Origin: Pycnococcus provasolii
Lineage: Eukaryota > Chlorophyta > Pseudoscourfieldiophyceae > Pseudoscourfieldiales > Pycnococcaceae
Length of the DNA stretch: 64,000 nucleotides
Direction of reading: 5' to 3'
Assembly: GCA_938743325.2 (NCBI GenBank)
Contig: OW568903.1
Coordinates: 124,001 to 188,000 of the forward strand
Every line of letters starts with the position of its first letter. Position 1 is the first letter of the stretch. The notes below the pieces were generated by a model. That model was not told where the DNA came from. It did no database searches and saw only the letters and a program-made list of their open reading frames with translations. Made by a program: the position numbers and the translations under genes. This document shows positions 6,801-54,624 of the stretch, piece by piece.

Positions 6801-8276
6801 ATGAGCCTCACGGGATGGTTTTCCTCTTCGAACACGCAGTCTCAGGACGTGTCGAAATCAAACAACGTTTCAGCACCAGCTTCGAACAACAAGCCCGTCT
6901 TCTCGTACACGAATTCGGCGGCATATGGCCTTTCATCCGAACTTTCCGCGGATGTCATACCTGAACCGCCAGCGTCGGGCGTTGGCGCGGCGCTTCAAAA
7001 CCCAACAACGCTACAACCCGCTGTTGCAACAGGAAGGCCGCCACTGCAGCCACTCACCACAAGCAACACGGGAAACGCCATGCAGCTCGTGCCAGCCGCA
7101 GCCGCGTCGCCGCACCTGCCGCCAACCACGGAACAGTACAGCGTACCGTCAACGCCAAACTTAGAACGTACCAGCATGATTCCACCCACACCAGCATCCA
7201 CGCACCAACACCACCAACACCACCAACAACAACGACAACACGCAAACAACTACAGCAGCGCGGTGTACAGCGCACTGCTCCCAGCGGTGCACTTCGCGGG
7301 AACCATCGCCACGTTCCAACCCACCGCGTCGTCGTCACCCAGGATGTCAGTGCGCGTCGAGTACGAAATCCAACTCGGAGACGGATGGACGCTCAAGCAG
7401 GGCAACCTCAAAGGGTCGACGCACGCGGGAACGCCGTGCGCGTACAACGGCCCGGCGCCGCTCTGCGAGCAGTTCGAGGCGGCGCTCAGCACCACGTTGT
7501 GGCAAAACTGGCCGCACATCGCCGTGCACGTCTACATGCACGAGCCGAACGTCGCACGCGAAGTGTTCCTCGGACACGGGCTCGCTTCGCTGCCACTCAC
7601 GCCGGGCATGCACCACATCGCCGTCGAGTGCTGGAGACCAAACAAACGCAAGGAAAAGCTGTCCGACGACCTCATGCGCATCTTCACCGGATTCACGCCG
7701 CAACTCGCGAAATTTGGACTCGCGCACAACAGAAGCGTGCTCAACGCCGAGTCGAACGTTCAGCTGCAGACGGTTGGCGTTGGGCGCGTTCACATCGACG
7801 TCATGTGCATGCAGCGCGACATGAGCCGCGCGAAAATCACCGCCGGACGACACCTGCTGAGTGGCGTCGCGGACGGACAGGCTGCGAAGGGCGACGACGA
7901 CAACCAGCTCGGATACGCGGACAGAGACAACTTCCTCGCCGCGAAGCAGAGCAGGCTTGTGCAGCGCGAACTGCAGCCGGAGTCGGATGGTCTGCGAAGC
8001 GTGCGCGAAGGACGCGGTGCGATGCGTGGAGTGGTGGGCACAGGAAGCTTGCGCTCCTCCGCGGCGCGCGTTTCAAGGGGCGGCAGCGGACCACCAAGCA
8101 CCGCAGGGTCGAGTCCGCGGCTTGGGCCAGGGGCTGACCGTCGCTCCGACCGCCTCGAGCTCGAGCTTGCGGCAATACGCGAGAGGAGGCGACAGCGAGA
8201 CACCGCGCGACGAGGTGGTGCGACGGCACTGTCGACGTCGTCGTCGTCGGCAATCTCGCGCACACCGTTGCGCTGA
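6801..8276 (+). CDS. B9-domain protein, B9D1-like (ciliary transition zone)
   Basis: 491 residues. The first 160 are low complexity (His/Gln runs near 130-150). Residues about 163-347 resemble the B9 domain: an opening FAGTIATF strand, a central WPHIAVHVYMHEP strand, a GHGLASLPLTPGMHHIAVECWRP segment (B9D1 has GYGAVHVPFSPGRH at this position), and a closing VGRVHIDVMCMQRDM strand (compare FVTLLFNVVTKDM in B9D1). In other eukaryotes B9D1, B9D2 and MKS1 form a module gating the ciliary base. The C-terminal 140 residues are basic and disordered. The 3' end faces the next gene 252 bp away. The B9 call is good; B9D1 over B9D2 is tentative. Confidence 0.78.
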   Translation: MSLTGWFSSSNTQSQDVSKSNNVSAPASNNKPVFSYTNSAAYGLSSELSADVIPEPPASGVGAALQNPTTLQPAVATGRPPLQPLTTSNTGNAMQLVPAAAASPHLPPTTEQYSVPSTPNLERTSMIPPTPASTHQHHQHHQQQRQHANNYSSAVYSALLPAVHFAGTIATFQPTASSSPRMSVRVEYEIQLGDGWTLKQGNLKGSTHAGTPCAYNGPAPLCEQFEAALSTTLWQNWPHIAVHVYMHEPNVAREVFLGHGLASLPLTPGMHHIAVECWRPNKRKEKLSDDLMRIFTGFTPQLAKFGLAHNRSVLNAESNVQLQTVGVGRVHIDVMCMQRDMSRAKITAGRHLLSGVADGQAAKGDDDNQLGYADRDNFLAAKQSRLVQRELQPESDGLRSVREGRGAMRGVVGTGSLRSSAARVSRGGSGPPSTAGSSPRLGPGADRRSDRLELELAAIRERRRQRDTARRGGATALSTSSSSAISRTPLR

Positions 8277-20761: not shown

Positions 20762-22219
20762 AGAATGGGTCGGCGCCGCCGTTTGCCCACCTCTGCGTGT
20801 GGTTGTGAAGGAAAGCGCCTCTTTGGGGAAGGGAAAGACGAAAGAAACAGGGAGTGGGGTTAGGGTAGTAGGGTTACGGTTAGGGTTACGGTTAGGGTTA
20901 GGGTTAGGGTTACGGTTAGGGTTACGGTTAGGGTTACGAGAAATCCATCGTTCGGGGTGTCCTGTCCTCCCCAGAATTCTGTTTGATTGATCGTCTCTGT
21001 CGAAGTCTCGAAGTCTCGCTCGATCCATGAGGTGGTCAAGATCACTCCCCAGACCGTGCAAGTTGCCTTTCTTTATTGGTCTTTATTTGCTTTTATTCGC
21101 AACCACCCGTCCATTGATTCAATCATTGCTCTTTCTTGACCACCCTTGGTGACTGTCTTTTCAGTCCAGTCGGCCTCTTTAAGGCCTCTTTTACTGAGGC
21201 CTAACCTAGCTAAAGGGTAGTGTGTGGCCTATTGTATTCTGCTTGCAAAGTGGCAGGCAAGGTGTGTCCGTTCCTTCGTTCAACGGTGACACCCTGGGCA
21301 TGTTTTCGCCGTCTACCCGCACGGTAGTCTAAGGCACCCCCTCCCTCGCCCTCGGGGGAACCTTCCCCCTGGGGGCACCCGGAGGAGGATTCCGCCCCTC
21401 ACTTTCTCGCAATCTCGCCATAATCGGCGAGCTCTCGCCATCGTCGCCATCGCTCTCGGGCAAGGTCTACGTAACGCGTAACACGCTCTGCTGGCCTAGG
21501 GGCACTTGTGTGTCCTGCGCTCGTGCTTAGTTGCCTGCTTCCGGAGCTCAGCTGTGACGTCAGTGCTCTGTTTGTGACTTACTTGTGTGTGCTCGGCAGT
21601 GAGTGGCCGGCATTATTATTTCGTCTTAAGTTGGTTCACTGCTTCTGGGACACGCACGCAACGCTAGTGAGAGGAGATTTGAGCAGGCCGGTCCGTTCAG
21701 CACTTCATCAGCAATTCCATCTTGCAAACGCGGCATCAGCGTCAACCCTTGCCATCATCGTTGACGACATCCTCTCGAGAAATACGAACGGGCGACACGC
21801 CGTGCAGCACCTCGAGGACGTGCGTGCTGCGTTGGTTCTTCGTACCACGAGCTGTCTGGCAACCTTTGTGGTGCACCTTGCAGTGCTGCGCTTGGCCTCG
21901 CCGACATCAACGACTCGCGTCGACGGAATCTTCAGAGCTCACCGTGGCGCGTCTTTTTCGGAGGAGAGGCAGGACGGCGTTCGTTTGTCGGTGAGGAGCG
22001 AAAGTCGCGTCTACGGGGAAAAGGCTGGCTGCAGCGCCCAACACCTCGAGAGAGGCAGAGAGCTCAACACGCACGACAATCTCGCGAAACCGCTCACACA
22101 GCGCCCTCCGAGACTGAGCCGGCCGACTCGACACGGTGCACGTGCACATTTCGCACGTCTTGCTCTTCTGGAACCGCCGTCAGGCTCGCACTACCTCCCC
22201 ACCTACAACAACACCGACG
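20762..22219. other. Intergenic stretch between divergent JmjC and ankyrin-kinase genes
   Basis: Carries a telomere-like array (20856-20937, listed separately) and G/C-rich low-complexity blocks near 21325-21375. An open stretch on the plus strand at about 21700-22130, in a different frame from the downstream gene, matches nothing I recognise. Both promoters must lie here. Confidence 0.45.
20856..20937 (+). repeat. Interstitial telomere-like array, degenerate
   Basis: About 82 bp of TTAGGG units interspersed with TTACGG variants (GGTTAGGGTTACGGTTAGGG pattern), ending 95 bp upstream of the JmjC start codon. Confidence 0.9.
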
Positions 22220-25200
22220 ATGGTCCATACAGAACTGCACAGTTTGATTCGTCAAAAGAAATGGACGGAAGTATGCGCTCACCTCGAGACACCAGTGGGG
22301 AAGGAGGAGGCGGGAAAGCCGGGTCAAGAAGGGGATTTACCCCTGCACTTCGCGGCATCAGCACAAGCCCCCTCTGACGTCGTTTCAAAACTCTTGGAGG
22401 CGTATCCTGAAGGTGCGGGAAAACAGAACAAAAACGGGCATCTACCCCTGCACTGGGCGGCAGCAAATAAAGCCCCCTCTGACGTCATTTCAAAACTCTT
22501 AGATGCGTATCCTGAGGGTGTGAGACAGCCGAACAACCGCGGGAGTTTACCCCTGCACATTGCGGCAACATTCAAAGCCCCCTCTGACGTCGTTTCAAAA
22601 CTCTTGAATGCGTATCCTGAAGGTGCGGGAAAAGCGAACAATGTCGGGGATCTACCCCTGCACTACGCGGCATCAGAACAAGCCCCATTTGACGTGGTTG
22701 CACAACTCTTGAAAGCGTATCCTGACGGAGCAGGAAAGACGGACAACAGCGGGAATCTACCCCTGCACTATGCGGCAGAAAAACAAGCCCCCTCTGAAGT
22801 TGTTGAACTAATCTTGCATGCGTATCCTCAGAGCGTTCATGTGAAGGCCCTTGGAAAGCTTCCGATCGAATGGGCGAGACTAAAAGGTGCTTCCGCTGAT
22901 GTGATAAAGCTTTTGGAAGACTCTTCTGCCGCGAGTGTGAATCAAACGGCAACAGCACCGCAATCGAACGCGAGGGATTCGAGACAAGATGATGGGCAGA
23001 ACGGTAGCGCAGATGACTCAGAGGACAACGACGACGACGATGATGGGCAGGACGGCATCGCAAATGACTCAGAGGACAACGACGACGACGATGGGCAGAA
23101 CGGCATCGCAGATGACTCAAAGAACACCGCCGCCGCCGCCGCCGCCGACGACGAATATTTTAGAGCTGAGGATGATGGCGATGATGAACTTGACCCCGGC
23201 AGTGTTATCGACGACGGGAACAAACAAGCAAGAAGTTTGCTTATGCCCATGGACGAGCGGGAGATGGCAATGAAAGAGCTTGAGGAGGCAACGAAGGCGT
23301 ACGATGTCTCGCGTCTACGAGCAGCACTTGATTCGGCGAAAGGTGCCAAAATTCCAGAACAGGCTTACGCTTATCGTCGTGCGGTGCGTGCATTGGAGCA
23401 CGAACAATTGCGCGAAAGATTTGAACGTCCATCGACAGACTTGGACTGGAAAAGCGGTGATGTAGAGGACTTGGGGAGAGGCAGCTTTGGGCATGTCTAC
23501 AAGGTGCGGTGCGCTGGCACAATCGTGGCGGCGAAACGCATGCCATCCTTTACATCACAGGAACGCGAAGAATCGATGCGCATGATGCGTCGAGAACTAA
23601 ACACTTTGTCGCAGATACGGCATCCAAATATCATAGATATGTACGGCATCGTCACGGATGATCCTGACCGAGTGTGCTTGCTGATGGAATATGCGCATCG
23701 GGGTGACCTACGCAAAGTGTTGGATGCAAAAGAAGGCCTTACCGATGATATAATATACCGTATCATTGAAGGAATCGTGCAGGGAATGCGACGTTTGCAC
23801 TCGCATCACCAACCAGTCATGCACAAAGATCTGAAATCGCAGAATGTGCTGATATGTGATGACTGGGCGCCGAAGATTGCTGATTTTGGTCTCGCAAAAA
23901 TGTCCGGGGATCGCTCGACTCTCGGTACGCGAACCACTGGGCATGCGGGCACATTTGCCTATCGCGCACCAGAATTATTCGACAACGAACCATTCACTAC
24001 GGCTTGCGACGTGTATGCGTTTGGTATCGTGGCTTGGGAATTAGCAACTCGCGCAATTCCATGGGAGGGCCATAATGATGCAGCCGTTGTGATGTCTGTT
24101 TGCATGAAAAAACGAAGGCCTAAATTCAAAACGAGCGAGCAAGAAGCATCCCTGCCTGGCTTTCTGGCTCAACGTGCATGGGCGCATGAAGCTACTGATC
24201 GACCTACCTTTGAAACGATGGCACGTGAGCTGGAAAGTGGAAACGGATACGTCGCACACACGTTAAGCCAAATCGGTGAGGAGGAGCGCGAGGCGATCTG
24301 CCAACAGCTGGGCCCGGATGAGCTACTGCAGAGCTTTGGTACGACGTCGCTAGAGACTTTATTGTGCCAACATAAGTCCATTTCTCTCGCGCATGCTATC
24401 CGCCAGTGCGTGCGAGGAAATTTGTCGTCGTGGTTGACCAAACTCATGAGGAAGACTGATGAGGAGATGGTCAACGACATCATGGACAAGTACAATGGAG
24501 ACTGGTGCAGCCTATGGGAAAATCTCGTGCCTGAATTTGCACCACCACTTCAAGGAGCGCCAGATTACAAGTCTATAACAGTTCTTGTGATAGTGGCCGG
24601 CATGGGCCTTAGAGCAGATGGTAATGGCGGGCAATATGCTCAGTTGCAACGAGCTGGATTTGAACCCGTACAGTGTGGCTTTGACAATCCGGAGCAGACG
24701 GGTTTTGACATGAACAAAAGCATCCAGTCCGTCGAGGAGGTCATTCAGAGCAAGAATCCCAATGTGATCATCTGTGCATCAAAGGGTGGCGCATATATGC
24801 TCGAGCTGTGGAAACGTGGATGTACGATTCCGAGCGTGATGATCAACGTGCATCCGGAGTGCGATGTTCTGCCCAAGGATGTATCGATTGTGCTTGTGCA
24901 CGGATCGAACGACGAGACATTTCGGCGAAGTCGCGACAACCTCGAGAATTTGATGAGATCGGCTAGCCCAAACATGTGTTTGCTTTACTATTCGGGAGAT
25001 TCTGGAACCTTACGTGGTGGTAGCGGCAAGACCCGATATGGTGACGCGCACAACCGTTCTGATACCATGCAAAAATTCAAAACTACGTACAGTTTGCTCA
25101 CGTACGACTGCCTTCCTCGTCTCGTGCATGTCGTTTGCTCGAACAATCCTGAGTTCGAATTCGCCAAGTCTTGGGAACGATTTCTTTCACCCGAGCGACG

Positions 25201-25891
25201 TCAGGCTGAACGAAGTCTTGGCTTTACCCCTGTGCAGCACAAAAATAAGTTCTGGGAGACTGCTCGGTCGCCTTCCCGATTGAATGAGGTGGCCAAGGAT
25301 TCAGACGAGTACGCCTGGGTACTCGACATTTTTCTCGCAAAACCTACGGCACGCCCCTTCTACCCATCATTTGATTATGAATCTTGGGAAAGTCGAGAAA
25401 TTATTAAGGTGGAGCGTATACAGAACAATGCTCAATACGATAATGCTTCCACGCACCACAGTAACGTTCGCAGAGCGATTCAAGACCAGGACATGGCCTT
25501 TACAGGAGGTGTTCACGCTCGCTGGCTCTTTCACGGAACGCCATCGGAAGAGGCACTTGCATCAATCATCAACAACCCAGTCACTGGATTTCGCGTAACG
25601 GCTTCCGGATCAACCGCCGGCACGCTTTGGGGCCCGTACATATACTTTGCTCGAGATGCACAGTATTCATTACCTTATTCATGCAAGGCAAAAGATGGAA
25701 GCTACAAAATGATGCTGTGTCTCGTCGAGCTGGGCATGACATGCCTTGGGGATGCGGACAGCAAGCTCCTTCCGGCACGCCGTGATCACCACCGGTACGA
25801 CAGCGCCGTGGATAGCCTTAGCAACCCTGAGATATTCTGCGCGACGACCGATGCGCAAATCTATCCAGCCTATGTGATTACATTCAAGTGA
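22220..25891 (+). CDS. Ankyrin-repeat / TKL kinase / alpha-beta-hydrolase-like / PARP fusion protein
   Basis: 1223 residues from the ATG at 22220. Residues about 33-240 form five to six ankyrin-type repeats of exactly 35 residues (LPLHYAASEQAPFDVV core). An acidic Asp-rich linker covers about 255-330. A TKL-type kinase follows at 412-673: GRGSFGHVYK, ATP lysine in VAAKRMP (about 438), HKDLKSQN (about 534-541), DFG (about 554), TFAYRAPELF. Residues about 785-950 look like an alpha/beta hydrolase, with a nucleophile elbow CASKGG (Ser about 854), a possible Asp in HGSNDE (about 898) and His in GDAHNR (about 943). The C-terminus (about 1060-1223) is a PARP catalytic domain with FHGTP, YFARDAQYS and DAQIYPAYVITF; the position of the usual catalytic Glu appears to be Ala or Gln, which favours mono-ADP-ribosylation or inactivity. 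The combined role is unknown; a signalling or stress enzyme is inferred. Confidence 0.9.
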   Translation: MVHTELHSLIRQKKWTEVCAHLETPVGKEEAGKPGQEGDLPLHFAASAQAPSDVVSKLLEAYPEGAGKQNKNGHLPLHWAAANKAPSDVISKLLDAYPEGVRQPNNRGSLPLHIAATFKAPSDVVSKLLNAYPEGAGKANNVGDLPLHYAASEQAPFDVVAQLLKAYPDGAGKTDNSGNLPLHYAAEKQAPSEVVELILHAYPQSVHVKALGKLPIEWARLKGASADVIKLLEDSSAASVNQTATAPQSNARDSRQDDGQNGSADDSEDNDDDDDGQDGIANDSEDNDDDDGQNGIADDSKNTAAAAAADDEYFRAEDDGDDELDPGSVIDDGNKQARSLLMPMDEREMAMKELEEATKAYDVSRLRAALDSAKGAKIPEQAYAYRRAVRALEHEQLRERFERPSTDLDWKSGDVEDLGRGSFGHVYKVRCAGTIVAAKRMPSFTSQEREESMRMMRRELNTLSQIRHPNIIDMYGIVTDDPDRVCLLMEYAHRGDLRKVLDAKEGLTDDIIYRIIEGIVQGMRRLHSHHQPVMHKDLKSQNVLICDDWAPKIADFGLAKMSGDRSTLGTRTTGHAGTFAYRAPELFDNEPFTTACDVYAFGIVAWELATRAIPWEGHNDAAVVMSVCMKKRRPKFKTSEQEASLPGFLAQRAWAHEATDRPTFETMARELESGNGYVAHTLSQIGEEEREAICQQLGPDELLQSFGTTSLETLLCQHKSISLAHAIRQCVRGNLSSWLTKLMRKTDEEMVNDIMDKYNGDWCSLWENLVPEFAPPLQGAPDYKSITVLVIVAGMGLRADGNGGQYAQLQRAGFEPVQCGFDNPEQTGFDMNKSIQSVEEVIQSKNPNVIICASKGGAYMLELWKRGCTIPSVMINVHPECDVLPKDVSIVLVHGSNDETFRRSRDNLENLMRSASPNMCLLYYSGDSGTLRGGSGKTRYGDAHNRSDTMQKFKTTYSLLTYDCLPRLVHVVCSNNPEFEFAKSWERFLSPERRQAERSLGFTPVQHKNKFWETARSPSRLNEVAKDSDEYAWVLDIFLAKPTARPFYPSFDYESWESREIIKVERIQNNAQYDNASTHHSNVRRAIQDQDMAFTGGVHARWLFHGTPSEEALASIINNPVTGFRVTASGSTAGTLWGPYIYFARDAQYSLPYSCKAKDGSYKMMLCLVELGMTCLGDADSKLLPARRDHHRYDSAVDSLSNPEIFCATTDAQIYPAYVITFK

Positions 25892-28724: not shown

Positions 28725-29127
28725 CGTGTGTGCGGCGTGTATCGTGCATCGTGTGTGTGTGCAGCGTCAGCGTCAGCAGGTGTATATCGTGTCGCGTGGA
28801 GCGTGCAGCGTGTGTGCAGCGTGTGTGCAGCGTCAGCTGGTGTGTATCGTGTATCGTGCATCGTGTATCGTGTATCGTGTATCGTGTGTGTGTGTGTCTT
28901 AGCTTGCTTAGCTTGTCAGCGTGCTTAGCTTGCGGCCGCTTGGTTTGGTTGCGTTTGGTGAGTGAGCCTCGTGAGCTTGATTCTCGTCTCCATCATCTTG
29001 CGGCGTCTTCTTGTCTTGCGGCCGGCATTCTTGGTGTCGAATCTCGCGGAATCGCGTTGTGGGAAGATTCACACCAACTACCAGGTGTCAGGCGTCAGGT
29101 GTCAGGTGTGAGAAAAGATCAGAAAGT
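28591..29127. other. Intergenic stretch with GT microsatellite, upstream of the sialyltransferase
   Basis: (GT)n runs at 28686-28721, then degenerate GTGTATCGTG and GTGTGCAGCGT units to about 28895, and TCAGGTGTCAGG units at 29086-29108 just before the ATG at 29128. No gene. Confidence 0.7.
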
Positions 29128-31515
29128 ATGGCCGACGTCGAATCCAATACTCAGCAGCAGCGCACAGCCGCCGCCGGGGAGAGCTCGAGCTCGCAAAGCA
29201 CACCACACAACCAAACCGAGAATCACAACACATCTTCAACATCACAGCAGCAGCAGCATCAGCAGAACAAATATGTCACCATCCTGCTTAACGTCGCGGC
29301 GGTCGCCGTCGCCGTCGTCGTGCAGCTCGCCTCACTCGCCATGGCGGCACCGCAGGCGATCCTAAGAGGCTTGCGCGTCGCTTTCAACAAGTTCCTCAAG
29401 GAAAGAGGGATGGACCTCAAACTCGTTCCACAAGGACAAGACGAAGACGGCGCACAAGGCGACGCCACGAGCCTACAGGCGAAGGTGCTCGCAAGAATCA
29501 GAACGGTCGCCGCGCAGGCGAAGACGAAGTGGGACGCGCTGAACGACGCAGACAGGAAGAAAGTCATGGCCGCCGCCGCTGTCGCGAGCCTGCTTCTACT
29601 CGGTGCCGCACACCGCACGGGAAACACGACGCACAAAATTCCAAAGGCACACCTAGGCTTTCAGTCCGCAGCTGCTGCAGCCTTGGCGACGAACGCGCAT
29701 GGCAACCTCCCTGCTCAGCGTGCACAAGCGTCTGGTTCCAGCGGATCACACGCAGCACACGCGTCGTCGTCGTCGCCGTCGTCGTCGTCGCGCTCCTCAC
29801 ACGGCGGCGGATCAAGCGCACACCGCCGTCAAGGTGCGGGTACGGGAACGGGACACAGAGACAGCGCAAGCTTGCATCGAGCTTCTCCGCCGCGGCGTAC
29901 ACCGCAAAACACGGCTCAGGCTCACGAACAGGAGGCGCGTGACATGGATACCATGACACTCGCGGCGCAGGAGGACGAGCGCATGGACGCCGAGGAGGAG
30001 GCGGATGCCACCGATGGCGACACATCGGCGGCAGATGCCGCAGACGAGGACGCAAACGCAAACGCAAACGCAGGGACAGGCGCCGATGCGGACGGCGAGA
30101 CCGACACAGACGCCGACGCAGAGCGGAGCCTCGAGCGCGATGAAGATGACGTTCCGTCGACTTCGCAGGCGGGCGCCTCGAAGAAGAAGAAGCAACGCAA
30201 CAGCGCGCCCGCTGCAGTGCCGATTGCAAGCAAACCTCGAGGTCGCGAGAAGAAAGCGTCTGCGCTCGAGTCGGGTGGCAGCGGCGGCGATCTGCCTGCG
30301 GCGATGGCTGGCGCGACCGTCACGGAGTCCGCGCAGAATCTTCCCGCGCACTTGCTCGCGAGCCTGGACCAGAACGACGTCGCCGCCGCCGGTGGACTGG
30401 ATCAAATTCCCGCCGCCGTGATCCAGCCGCTCGAGCGCTACGACGGCCCGCTCATCGTGCATCGCGGCACGTGGAGCGTTGGGTCCAAGATTCCGTTCCC
30501 GCGCAAGAAGTTTCGCAACCAGCTCACGCACTACAGTCTCGGCGCGGTGAGCAAGGCTCTGCGTGACGTGCTGCCGATGCGCGACGAGGTGCGCGGATCG
30601 ATCGGCGTGGGCGCCGCGACGACGTGCGCGGTTGTGGGCAATGGCGGCAGTCTCCTGCTGCACGAGCTTGGCAGCACGATCGACATGCACGACGTGGTGA
30701 TTCGCCTCAACGCCGGTCCGACGGCTGGGTACGAGGCGCACGTGGGCTCGAAGACGACGCTTCGGCTCGTCAATCGGCTTCACATGGGGTACCGTGGGAA
30801 CGACGACGAGACGGTTCTGCAGCACGTGTCGACGCCCATCGCGCTGCAGCAGTACACGTCGCTCATGAGCCGCGCTCGCTCGCAGACGGCATCGCTCGTC
30901 TCGAAGGATGCGAGCGGGAACGCGAGCAGCCTGTTCGACGGCGCGCGCGCGGAGTCGATGTGGACGCAGACGTTCCTTCTGGATCCGGCGTTTCACGACC
31001 GCGCGTTCGAGTACATCGACAAGGGCGTTCTGTCGAACGGCATGTACGCCGTCATCCTGGCGACGGAGCTCTGCTCGAAGGTGTCGATCTACGGCTTCTA
31101 CGAGAAGTGGCGCGGGCAGATTCGGTACCACTACTTCAACACCGAGTCGCCGGACGCCGGGCAGAGCACGCGCGACGGCCGCGAGGCTGCGCGCCTCCGC
31201 CTCTTCGTGAAGGCTCGGCCGCGCAGCCACAACTTCGGCGAGCCTTGCATGGGCGGATGCGCGGAGCCGTGCGTCAACTGTCCGACGGGCAGCCACTGCG
31301 AGTGCGGCGTGTTCCACCCCGTGCCCGACGAAGGGTACTGCTACCAGCAGAGACATCCGCGCAGCACCGGCGCGCCGGCCGCCGGGTGCATGCGCAAGTG
31401 CCGCGACAAGTTCACCGCCGGCGGCGGCGATGATGGCACGAACTTCTGTCCTGGAGGTTACGCGAGCTACTGCCCGAACATTCCTGACGTGTACAGCCGT
31501 CGCTGCGAACCGTGA
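29128..31515 (+). CDS. GT29 sialyltransferase-like type II membrane glycosyltransferase
   Basis: 795 residues from the ATG at 29128. A hydrophobic anchor at about 49-72 (YVTILLNVAAVAVAVVVQ) gives a Golgi-type topology. A long disordered stem (about 180-440) is rich in Ser, His, Asp and Glu. The catalytic part has sialylmotif L at about 500-550 (CAVVGNGGSLLLHELGS, MHDVVIRLNAGPTAGYE, GSKTTLRLVNR), sialylmotif S at about 634-657 (LSNGMYAVILATELCSKVSIYGF split over strand and helix), and an HYF motif (YHYFNTE, about 667-673). A cysteine-rich module occupies about 702-795. GT29 enzymes use CMP-sialic acid or, in plants, CMP-Kdo-like donors; the donor here is unknown. A second hydrophobic stretch near 147-162 is too short for certainty. 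Confidence 0.88.
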   Translation: MADVESNTQQQRTAAAGESSSSQSTPHNQTENHNTSSTSQQQQHQQNKYVTILLNVAAVAVAVVVQLASLAMAAPQAILRGLRVAFNKFLKERGMDLKLVPQGQDEDGAQGDATSLQAKVLARIRTVAAQAKTKWDALNDADRKKVMAAAAVASLLLLGAAHRTGNTTHKIPKAHLGFQSAAAAALATNAHGNLPAQRAQASGSSGSHAAHASSSSPSSSSRSSHGGGSSAHRRQGAGTGTGHRDSASLHRASPPRRTPQNTAQAHEQEARDMDTMTLAAQEDERMDAEEEADATDGDTSAADAADEDANANANAGTGADADGETDTDADAERSLERDEDDVPSTSQAGASKKKKQRNSAPAAVPIASKPRGREKKASALESGGSGGDLPAAMAGATVTESAQNLPAHLLASLDQNDVAAAGGLDQIPAAVIQPLERYDGPLIVHRGTWSVGSKIPFPRKKFRNQLTHYSLGAVSKALRDVLPMRDEVRGSIGVGAATTCAVVGNGGSLLLHELGSTIDMHDVVIRLNAGPTAGYEAHVGSKTTLRLVNRLHMGYRGNDDETVLQHVSTPIALQQYTSLMSRARSQTASLVSKDASGNASSLFDGARAESMWTQTFLLDPAFHDRAFEYIDKGVLSNGMYAVILATELCSKVSIYGFYEKWRGQIRYHYFNTESPDAGQSTRDGREAARLRLFVKARPRSHNFGEPCMGGCAEPCVNCPTGSHCECGVFHPVPDEGYCYQQRHPRSTGAPAAGCMRKCRDKFTAGGGDDGTNFCPGGYASYCPNIPDVYSRRCEP

Positions 31516-51741: not shown

Positions 51742-54624
51742 CTAATATATGATGACCACCGCCAAAGCAAGGAATGCGATGACGTGAAATGCTTGAGCTA
51801 GCTTCGATGCCGAGGATTTTGCTGCTGGTGCTTTGGCTGATACTGTTGTATTGCATGGTTGATTGTTGCAACTGTCGGACGTTGACGGCTTCGTGCCGGA
51901 GCACATCGTGTCTGCCACCGCTTGTCCGTCCGAACGTAAGCACGTGACAGTGCGGGTACGCGTACCCCCTCCGCACGACTCGGAACACGAGCCAAACGAT
52001 CCTTCGGTAAACGCATACGTATACGAAGTCGTGGGCGCTTTATCAGCAGCATTTGTCGTCGTAATAATAGCGTAAGGAGGCGGCGGGCTCCTGCAGTCGT
52101 CATTGTCGTAATTGCATGCCGCATTATTGCAAGCACTGTCACATTCTCCATCCCCCGGATACGACGAGGGACACCCGGGTGCGCAATTGCAAGCTCCGGT
52201 ATTGCACGACTGAGATGTCGAGGGCTTTGAACCCGAGCAGTACGAGTCCGATACACTTTGACCGTCCGAGCGTTTGCATGTCACGGAGCGCGTTTGCGTG
52301 CCTCCTCCGCATGACGCCGAACAAGACGACCACGAGCCGGTAGTGTACGAGTACGTGTACGATGGCGTCGGCGTCGGCGACGGCGTCGAGCAAGCTTGTG
52401 TGTTGCACGACTGAGATGTCGGCGGCTTTGAACAACTCGAGCAGTGCATGTCGGAAACAACTCTGCCTTCCTTTGCCCCATTTGTCACTTTGCACAGAAC
52501 AGAGCGTGTCTGTGTGCCACCGCCGCATGCCGATGAACACGAGGACCACGAGCTTTCTTCAAACGAGTACGTTCGATCCACGCAAGATTCGCTGAAACGA
52601 GAAGATGCCGTCGTTTCGACAAGAGTCCACCTTGCCAAATTGTAATAATTTGCATCAAGCGCCACGACAATGGGAACAGGGGCATCTTTGCCGAAGCCCT
52701 CCTGGTCACATTCTTTTTGTAGTTTCGTTAGGGCAATGTCAACGTCACCAAGTCCTAAAAGATCCTTTCCAATTGGCGTCCAAGTGTCCACATTGTACCG
52801 ATCTCCGAGCAAAGCGAGGTACTTGCTCTTGCCTCCCGACTCTTTGCTCCTGATGTAATACTCATCGCCCGTTTTCTCAAATTTCCATTCGGCTCCACCG
52901 TAGTAGTCAGAATCGGTCGCAACTGGCATTTCAGCGCTGTCCCACTTCCCGAAAGGATTTGAGGTACCTAGATGGATCATTCGACCTGTCGCTGTATTGA
53001 CAAGATTGTACGTATCGGGACCACCCTTCTGCTCCAACCGCCATTCAGCAAGGCCGTAGTAATCACAATCAGCGCCGATAAGAACTGGCTTACCAGTATA
53101 TCCACTTTCCGTCCCACGCGAATCGTACACCTCACAGTCTACAAGCTCTGCATGCAACTCGAGATCGGGACATGCCTCTGGGTAATAAGGAGATGGAGCC
53201 GAACCGATGTGGAGATAGCGTCCTGACAGTTGATGCTTGATGTTGTAGACTTTTCCAGCCACAGGAGTGCTCCCACCACCGGTTCCACCGGTGGTAGTGC
53301 AAGCTTGCGTGTTGCACGACTGAGATGTTGACGGCTTCGAGCCCGAGCAGTACGAGTCCGACACGCTCTGGCCGTCCGAGCGTTTGCAAGTCACCGAGCG
53401 TGTCTTCGTGCCTCCTCCGCAAGACGCCGAACACGATGACCACGAGCCGGTAGTGTACGAGTACGTAGTGCTAAGGTCTGGGAGGTTGTAGCAGGTGACA
53501 ACCAATCCATCTTCCCATTCTGCACTAGTCCATGGGGCAGTCGGGTACTCCGCGGTACCATCCGGCAGCGAAACCCACCCGGATGTACTGGAACAATCAA
53601 GTTCTTCGTGGTTCCCTATTGCCCACGATGAACCTGTAAAGTAGATGACGCGTTTGTTTCCTGGCTGGTCAAGTAGGTCAGCGACGAACATCGGTTTCCC
53701 ACGGCAATCTTTCTCGTATCGATAGTAAGTAAAACGAAGATGTGCCCTCGATCCTCCTGTCACCGTGCACCGCTGAGTCGTTTCCGCCACCGGAACGCAG
53801 TGGCTGGACACGTGAGATTTAACATCCTTCTCGTAGCCGGATAAGCACGTGCTGCACTCTCCATCCCCGCTGTAACAGACCAGGCAGTTGTCGGCGTAAT
53901 TGTACGGCGTCGCCTTGCAGCAGGAGCCACTCGTTGCTCCATGAAAAAGTCCAAGGCAGGAGCCACTCGAGCAGTCCGAGTTGGACGTACACGAGCCAAC
54001 TGTCTTCTTCGATTGTTGTTCTTCGCACAACTGCTTGTTGTAACCGACCTTTGATGCCGGCTTAGTACCAGGGCACTTGCTGTCGTCAACAACGCGGTAT
54101 CCGATTCCCTCTTTATGCGGAATCGCCGAATTGAGCATGTTCGCGACATTACTCTGAATCGACTCTTCCCGACACTCGACGGGATTGCACGGGTCTTTCG
54201 CTCCCACTGTTTCGAACCAAGCGATCCTGGATTTGCAGCCACTTACAATGTCGCAGAACTTTTCAGCAGGTGCGCAGTATTCATACGTGAGTCCGTATTG
54301 TTTGCACGTCGGTATGCCTCGGCTGTTCCAGCTGAAGGAACCAGGACATTCTATGTCGCTTCCGTCAGCGTTCGACCGGCCAATGCAAATATCCGCCTCG
54401 CAGCACTCATAGCACGCATAGAACCACCCTATACCACAACCACTCGACGACATGATTGATTTTTGCGTTGCTACTTTGACACCCCACTTGTCCTTATAAA
54501 CACAGTTGATGGCGTTTTCATTCTTTTTCGCTCCATCGCAAGATTTGGCCTGAGCCAAACTGAAAAAAAGCCAAACTTGGAGGAACGTGAACACAAGCAG
54601 AACACTTAGCCGCCTGAACATCAT
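51742..54624 (-). CDS. Secreted or anchored thrombospondin type 1 repeat protein with beta-trefoil and LNR modules
   Basis: 960 residues. A signal peptide covers about 1-26 (LSVLLVFTFLQVWLFFSLA). A cysteine-rich N-terminal region runs to about 290. Four TSP1 modules of the WSSCSASCGGGT type lie at about 390-440, 680-735, 755-805 and 860-915. Between the first and second, residues about 450-675 contain three related blocks (YNIKHQLSGRYLHIG, YNLVNTATGRMIHLG, YYIRSKESGG, each ending near a DxDYYxxAEW/W pattern), suggesting a beta-trefoil lectin. A Lin12/Notch-type repeat (GDGECDSACNNAACNYDNDD) precedes the last TSP1 module. The last 25 residues are hydrophobic after Ser/Ala, suitable for a GPI signal or membrane anchor. 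Adhesion or surface recognition is inferred. Confidence 0.88.
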   Translation of the reverse strand: MMFRRLSVLLVFTFLQVWLFFSLAQAKSCDGAKKNENAINCVYKDKWGVKVATQKSIMSSSGCGIGWFYACYECCEADICIGRSNADGSDIECPGSFSWNSRGIPTCKQYGLTYEYCAPAEKFCDIVSGCKSRIAWFETVGAKDPCNPVECREESIQSNVANMLNSAIPHKEGIGYRVVDDSKCPGTKPASKVGYNKQLCEEQQSKKTVGSCTSNSDCSSGSCLGLFHGATSGSCCKATPYNYADNCLVCYSGDGECSTCLSGYEKDVKSHVSSHCVPVAETTQRCTVTGGSRAHLRFTYYRYEKDCRGKPMFVADLLDQPGNKRVIYFTGSSWAIGNHEELDCSSTSGWVSLPDGTAEYPTAPWTSAEWEDGLVVTCYNLPDLSTTYSYTTGSWSSCSASCGGGTKTRSVTCKRSDGQSVSDSYCSGSKPSTSQSCNTQACTTTGGTGGGSTPVAGKVYNIKHQLSGRYLHIGSAPSPYYPEACPDLELHAELVDCEVYDSRGTESGYTGKPVLIGADCDYYGLAEWRLEQKGGPDTYNLVNTATGRMIHLGTSNPFGKWDSAEMPVATDSDYYGGAEWKFEKTGDEYYIRSKESGGKSKYLALLGDRYNVDTWTPIGKDLLGLGDVDIALTKLQKECDQEGFGKDAPVPIVVALDANYYNLARWTLVETTASSRFSESCVDRTYSFEESSWSSCSSACGGGTQTRSVLCKVTNGAKEGRVVSDMHCSSCSKPPTSQSCNTQACSTPSPTPTPSYTYSYTTGSWSSCSASCGGGTQTRSVTCKRSDGQSVSDSYCSGSKPSTSQSCNTGACNCAPGCPSSYPGDGECDSACNNAACNYDNDDCRSPPPPYAIITTTNAADKAPTTSYTYAFTEGSFGSCSESCGGGTRTRTVTCLRSDGQAVADTMCSGTKPSTSDSCNNQPCNTTVSAKAPAAKSSASKLAQAFHVIAFLALAVVIIY

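Follow-up and report, generated by a model that had tools for sequence, protein, structure and literature searches.

A four-part ankyrin, kinase, hydrolase-like and ADP-ribosyltransferase protein in the green alga Pycnococcus provasolii

A 64,000-nucleotide stretch of the Pycnococcus provasolii genome (contig OW568903.1, positions 124,001 to 188,000; hereafter "the window", counted from its first letter) encodes a protein in which ankyrin repeats, a TKL-like kinase, a hydrolase-like domain (HLD) and an ADP-ribosyltransferase (ART) domain follow one another in a single chain. This four-part fusion is real and, among the data searched, only Pycnococcus has it. Its main interest lies in the HLD–ART module: the protein appears to be a clade-3-like mono-ART that also contains another conserved enzyme domain, and sequence comparison indicates a conserved HLD–ART pair, retained while the front ends change. 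The pair is the new point here and, as far as we found, is unnamed in the literature searched, where titles and abstract openings held nothing on an HLD–ART or an ankyrin–kinase–PARP fusion (a mention in an ADP-ribosyltransferase natural-history review is possible).

The hydrolase-like domain and its ADP-ribosyltransferase partner

The HLD was confidently modeled as a lidless alpha/beta-hydrolase fold, in which Ser854, Asp898 (Asp or Glu in relatives) and His944 follow the matching strands in the order nucleophile–acid–histidine and form a predicted catalytic triad (codons 24779-24781, 24911-24913 and 25049-25051). Conservation supports this triad, which the initial annotation had raised as a possibility: in an alignment of 53 rows, made up of 52 relatives and the window piece, the serine and histidine are invariant (53/53 each) and position 898 is always acidic (D in 45, E in 8), and S-[D/E]-H is kept in 106 of the 108 proteins covering the key positions. 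The same annotation had singled out residues 690–1060 for structure prediction; a hydrolase domain is indeed predicted there, but it occupies only residues 781–965, the remainder being a helical segment (690–780), a connector and, from about residue 1016, the first part of the ART.

No named alpha/beta-hydrolase Pfam family matched the HLD of the window protein at E up to 1, nor did one occur among the first 25 of the 78 Pfam families listed for its relatives; the domain is also without a Pfam match to the ADP-ribose eraser families (macrodomain, ARH, PARG). Some relatives did give weak matches to glycosyltransferase families (Glyco_trans_4_4 in 6 of 53 rows, best 0.0014; Glyco_transf_4 in 3 rows, best 0.013), but these were set aside because the fold search favors alpha/beta-hydrolases. 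The HLD shares its predicted fold and S-D-H order with compact serine hydrolases (Vibrio harveyi myristoyl-ACP thioesterase 1tht, B. subtilis lipase A, YdeN and ABHD10), but differs from them in its low identity (~10–15%), a nucleophile motif that is mostly [CAS]-[AG]-S-K-G-G, the lack of a Pfam family and its junction to an ART. Against viral models, Foldseek gave three matches at E up to 0.001 (14–16% identity), two of them named hydrolase or esterase. One subgroup of relatives (P0078, P0081, P0083-P0085, P0087-P0089, P0091, P0095, P0097 and P0099) carries an insertion of ~90–100 residues within the HLD, after the acid motif, as seen from split matches and read directly in P0078.

The ART belongs by sequence to the PARP/ARTD superfamily, its catalytic domain being recognized by both profile and fold and its catalytic residues forming a predicted H-Y-I triad (His1105, 25532-25534; Tyr1142, 25643-25645; Ile1205, 25832-25834). 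In the 53 rows the histidine is invariant (53/53), the tyrosine is kept in 51 (N in two) and the third column is mainly aliphatic (I42 V8 M1 L1 Q1). The best fold matches were PARP15 (Z 22.6), PARP12 (21.6), and PARP14 and PARP10 (both 21.3); PARP12 was also matched in sequence (2.6e-12), with SNPEIF aligned to PARP12 SDPSIF. As in clade 3, an aliphatic residue apparently replaces the Glu of H-Y-E, with a proline one residue away. The domain is thus probably clade-3-like (closest to PARP12/PARP15) and, because of this affinity and its H-Y-I triad, predicted to mono- rather than poly-ADP-ribosylate. Glu1204, directly adjoining Ile1205, leaves some doubt about this assignment.

Known PARP architectures fit the protein incompletely. 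PARP12, PARP15, PARP14 and PARP10 are its closest counterparts, but it lacks a WWE, macro or CCCH zinc-finger match and has a hydrolase domain predicted to pack on the ART. With tankyrases and ankyrin-type clade 1 PARPs it shares N-terminal ankyrin repeats and a C-terminal PARP domain, whereas its ART is of clade-3 type, kinase and hydrolase stand between the two, and WGR has no match. Neither SAM, required for the tankyrase order ankyrin–SAM–PARP, nor PARP_reg, expected of a PARP1-type protein, was found in it at E up to 1.

A search with residues 690–1223 matched 102 proteins, the matches covering both HLD and ART except in P0102 (lizard) and P0103 (fish), which are ART only; P0101 is weak in the HLD, and P0070 and P0094 are incomplete at one end. 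Besides Pycnococcus and the two vertebrates, the organism-named sources are six dinoflagellates (Polarella, Prorocentrum, Amphidinium massartii, Gymnodinium catenatum and, read from incomplete names, Symbiodinium and Scrippsiella), while most others are metagenome or transcriptome proteins. The four-part combination, which the initial annotation did not recognize from elsewhere, stands in all its parts by profile, fold and conservation, but its HLD and PARP are no one-off, being common to ~100 proteins.

What varies is the front end. The dinoflagellate modules are ~37–42% identical to that of the window protein, but are preceded by EF-hands (often) or other domains where Pycnococcus has ankyrin repeats and a kinase. 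Pfam matches in the 53 rows (E up to 0.1) included PARP in 49, EF-hand_6 in 25, ankyrin in four, and thioredoxin, WD40 and Arm in two each; P0046 combines a caspase domain with EF-hands, and P0098 has a dynamin-like GTPase. Several relatives come from transcript collections (e.g., P0010, P0015, P0016, P0046), which places HLD and ART together in single assembled transcripts elsewhere, and the model packs the two as one unit. Matches in several relatives (e.g., P0065, P0076, P0087) reach into the helical segment, which therefore probably belongs to the module as well. A profile of the HLD alone recovered 24 proteins (longest listed contig 3,023 bases; four without a contig listed), of which 10 extend past residue 965, seven of those beyond 1015 (two by just 2–4 residues), and 14 end within the HLD. 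None of the 24 is a clear standalone HLD, although this does not prove absence.

The gene and its ankyrin–kinase front end

The open frame runs from 22136 to 25891 on the forward strand, with its first ATG at 22220 and 1223 codons without an internal stop, bearing out the single uninterrupted frame originally proposed (Table 1). The Pfam matches for ankyrin (Ank_2), kinase (Pkinase, 415-665) and PARP (1059-1202) all exceed their curated cut-offs, so the objection that the annotation had foreseen, a missing kinase or PARP match, falls away. No Pfam family was found between kinase and PARP at E up to 1, and the NCBIfam matches, all under their cut-offs, were kinase models apart from one chance match.

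Table 1. Features of the four-part gene, in window coordinates.
Feature	Residues	Position	Strand	Basis or remark
Whole gene	1-1223	22220..25891	+	Single open frame, 1223 aa plus stop, no intron required
Ankyrin repeats	38-235	22331..22924	+	Pfam Ank_2 3.7e-27; unit spacing
Acidic low-complexity linker, poorly conserved	236-345	22925..23254	+	Alignment to P0002
TKL-like Ser/Thr kinase	413-672	23456..24235	+	Pkinase 6.3e-49; nearest solved structures
Helical segment, kinase to HLD	690-780	24287..24559	+	Helices in predicted model; matches in relatives
Hydrolase-like domain (HLD)	781-965	24560..25114	+	Lidless alpha/beta-hydrolase fold in predicted model
HLD–ART connector	966-1015	25115..25264	+	Predicted model
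ART (PARP catalytic) domain	about 1016-1223	25265..25888	+	PARP profile 4.2e-12; fold and sequence matches

A second P. provasolii protein (P0002, 1236 aa, labeled poly [ADP-ribose] polymerase at NCBI) has the identical domain order, and its matching N-terminus supports the start at 22220. Identical over aligned residues amount to 146/235 in the ankyrin part, 15/34 in the acidic linker (where 34 of 110 positions align), 58/67 before the kinase and 220/260 in the kinase, and to 85/91 in the helical segment, 165/185 in the HLD, 43/50 in the connector and 198/208 in the ART. By this comparison the strongest constraint is in the C-terminal half. Both Pycnococcus proteins also have ~10 additional residues (946–955; 25055-25084, +) that are absent from the other ten alignment rows, save a single residue in one; these closely follow the catalytic His and would therefore lie near the presumed active site.

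The ankyrin part was described as uniform at 35 residues, which holds for five regular units (LPLH at 40, 75, 110, 145 and 180) but not for a sixth, degenerate one. The genome holds many further ankyrin-repeat matches, one of them in a 649-aa frame ~117 kb downstream (C43:267385-267999, +), where the repeats are 65% identical to residues 3–204. The kinase has a Gly loop (419-424), K439, E459, HKD (535-537) in place of HRD, DFG (555-557) and APE (583-585). With these catalytic landmarks in place, we class it as TKL-like from its nearest solved structures (CTR1, MAP3K12, MAP3K9, TNNI3K and RIPK4). Ankyrin repeats and a kinase in one chain are known from TNNI3K and RIPK4, as well as from plant and protist ankyrin-kinases; the window protein shares with TNNI3K and RIPK4 the ankyrin plus TKL-like kinase but differs in its HKD and in the two-enzyme C-terminus after the kinase. 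Among 11 other kinases examined in the same genome, HRD was found in 7/7 readable ones, four giving no pattern match. Many plant immune receptors carry non-RD kinases.

Kinase, HLD and ART also occur together in two further proteins, P0130 (metagenome, 1163 aa) and P0101 (963 aa, its frame starting within the kinase), both with HHD instead of HRD and neither with an ankyrin match. P0130 aligns to residues 940–1222 at 36% identity and scores 23.6 bits with the PARP profile, just under the Pfam cut-off of 26.7; P0101 aligns to residues 962–1206 and has no PARP profile match at E up to 0.01. Since the P0130 kinase fits another Pycnococcus kinase, on contig C3, better than that of the window protein (52 vs. 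41.2 bits), a single shared origin of the arrangement is less likely and two kinase fusions are favored, the one in this distant metagenome group being probably separate.

Descent and genomic setting

In a FastTree phylogeny of 106 of 134 proteins (the other 28 cover at most 80% of residues 780–1223 and were excluded), both Pycnococcus sequences share a single long branch that falls outside the group holding all dinoflagellates named in the tree, and a dinoflagellate origin of the Pycnococcus HLD–ART is not supported. This branch lies near thioredoxin- and dynamin-bearing proteins, with a support of 0.027 for its immediate sister (a grouping of four members) and of 0.711 and 0.8 for the neighboring groupings of five and six members. 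No viral or prokaryotic HLD relative was confirmed in weak single-pattern scans, where one peptide pattern each picked out 19 stretches of viral contigs and 132 of genome contigs; such scans do not establish absence.

Within the Pycnococcus genome (32,333,900 bases, 46 contigs) a second HLD–ART unit was not found, one of the searches having scored 38 of 208 candidates. The sole other PARP family match is a 564-aa frame on contig C12 near 192468 (L001:514-2208, -) that joins PARP to a ubiquitin-conjugating domain (UQ_con), resembling the PARP6/8-type proteins with UBCc reported for Chlamydomonas (PMC4245714). A genome scan for the PARP regulatory domain gave no match, but its control also matched nowhere. 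ADP-ribose erasers are represented by four Macro, two ADP_ribosyl_GH and two PARG matches. The PARG-type matches lie at C12:729514-730149 and C2:379176-379682, and an ADP_ribosyl_GH match at C14:467360-468319 (+) has one internal TGA (pseudogene, intron or error).

Elsewhere in the window, a 960-aa frame (51742-54624, -) has repeated ADAMTS-type thrombospondin domains (9.1e-47) and Notch LNR, which are animal-like extracellular modules. A glycosyltransferase family 29 (sialyltransferase) domain lies at 29011-31515 (+; 8.3e-33), and a B9-C2 ciliary basal-body protein at 6801-8276 (+; 8.1e-26), the latter being notable if the strain is only coccoid.

Possible function and alternatives

The domain parts, the conserved triads, the HLD–ART pairing and the swapping of front ends are apparent from sequence or model; building on them, we infer the activity of both enzymes, the order of events and the substrate. 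With about even confidence, we propose a signaling enzyme in which a constant two-enzyme effector (residues about 690–1223), a clade-3-like mono-ART packed on a lidless serine hydrolase, is served by exchangeable inputs. The Pycnococcus input would consist of ankyrin repeats that bind a partner or target and of a TKL-like kinase whose phosphorylation of the effector, or of the target so bound, sets effector activity. Once the input is engaged, the ART would add a single ADP-ribose to the bound target or to itself, and the hydrolase would act on the same target via Ser854, most likely splitting a (thio)ester bond, either of an acyl group or of the ester-linked product of the ART.

It is tempting, if tentative, to speculate further that HLD–ART represents an unrecognized effector class of microbial eukaryotes, in which mono-ART and serine hydrolase would act on one target in sequence. 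Each lineage would have linked the two to its own signals of stress or danger (calcium, redox, GTPase, caspase, kinase, binding repeats), in the manner of sensor-swapping immune receptors. On this reading, with an ankyrin–kinase pair as the Pycnococcus input, phosphorylation, ADP-ribosylation and (thio)ester hydrolysis would meet in one chain. The changing front ends are consistent with a role in stress or pathogen response, but no more than that.

Alternatively, the HLD could act mainly as a receptor or regulator, like the plant alpha/beta-hydrolases KAI2/D14, binding or slowly cleaving a small molecule and gating the ART, with turnover secondary, which we consider a minor possibility. It is unlikely that the HLD instead removes ester-linked ADP-ribose (on Glu/Asp) set by the neighboring ART, so that one protein would both write and erase the mark. 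Serine hydrolases do cleave esters, and the HLD is constantly paired with an ART type capable of ester links (in Rab14, glutamates are reported as PARP12 targets; PMC12377720). However, the canonical erasers already present in the genome lower this probability, and the HLD is in any case not the alga's missing eraser. We know of no ADP-ribose eraser with an alpha/beta-hydrolase fold, which also counts against such a role.

Still more doubtful is an ordinary shuffled multidomain protein, a lineage-specific fusion of four largely independent domains: the patchy distribution, the many front ends and the seemingly separate kinase fusions would fit it, but HLD and ART stay together across a deep tree of 106 sequences and form one packed unit in the predicted model. 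Two adjacent genes in one frame, or an assembly artefact, are hardly credible given the stop-free frame and a second protein, P0002, of equal order and similar length, with 85/91 identical residues at the kinase–HLD junction.

Of these readings we prefer the two-enzyme effector whose inputs can be exchanged. The comparison also gives a predicted fold and candidate triad residues to a domain that has no Pfam match and was passed over in the named Pycnococcus record. A 2010 survey (PMC2964712) described clade 3 PARPs as limited in distribution, whereas HLD–ART occurs both in a green alga and in dinoflagellates; if our assignment is true, clade-3-like ARTs would extend well outside the groups of that survey. 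Green alga and dinoflagellates would then possess a PARP12/15-type mono-ART with a built-in second enzyme, and Pycnococcus would offer a kinase, an ADP-ribosyltransferase and a hydrolase within a single gene, where they may be tested against each other.

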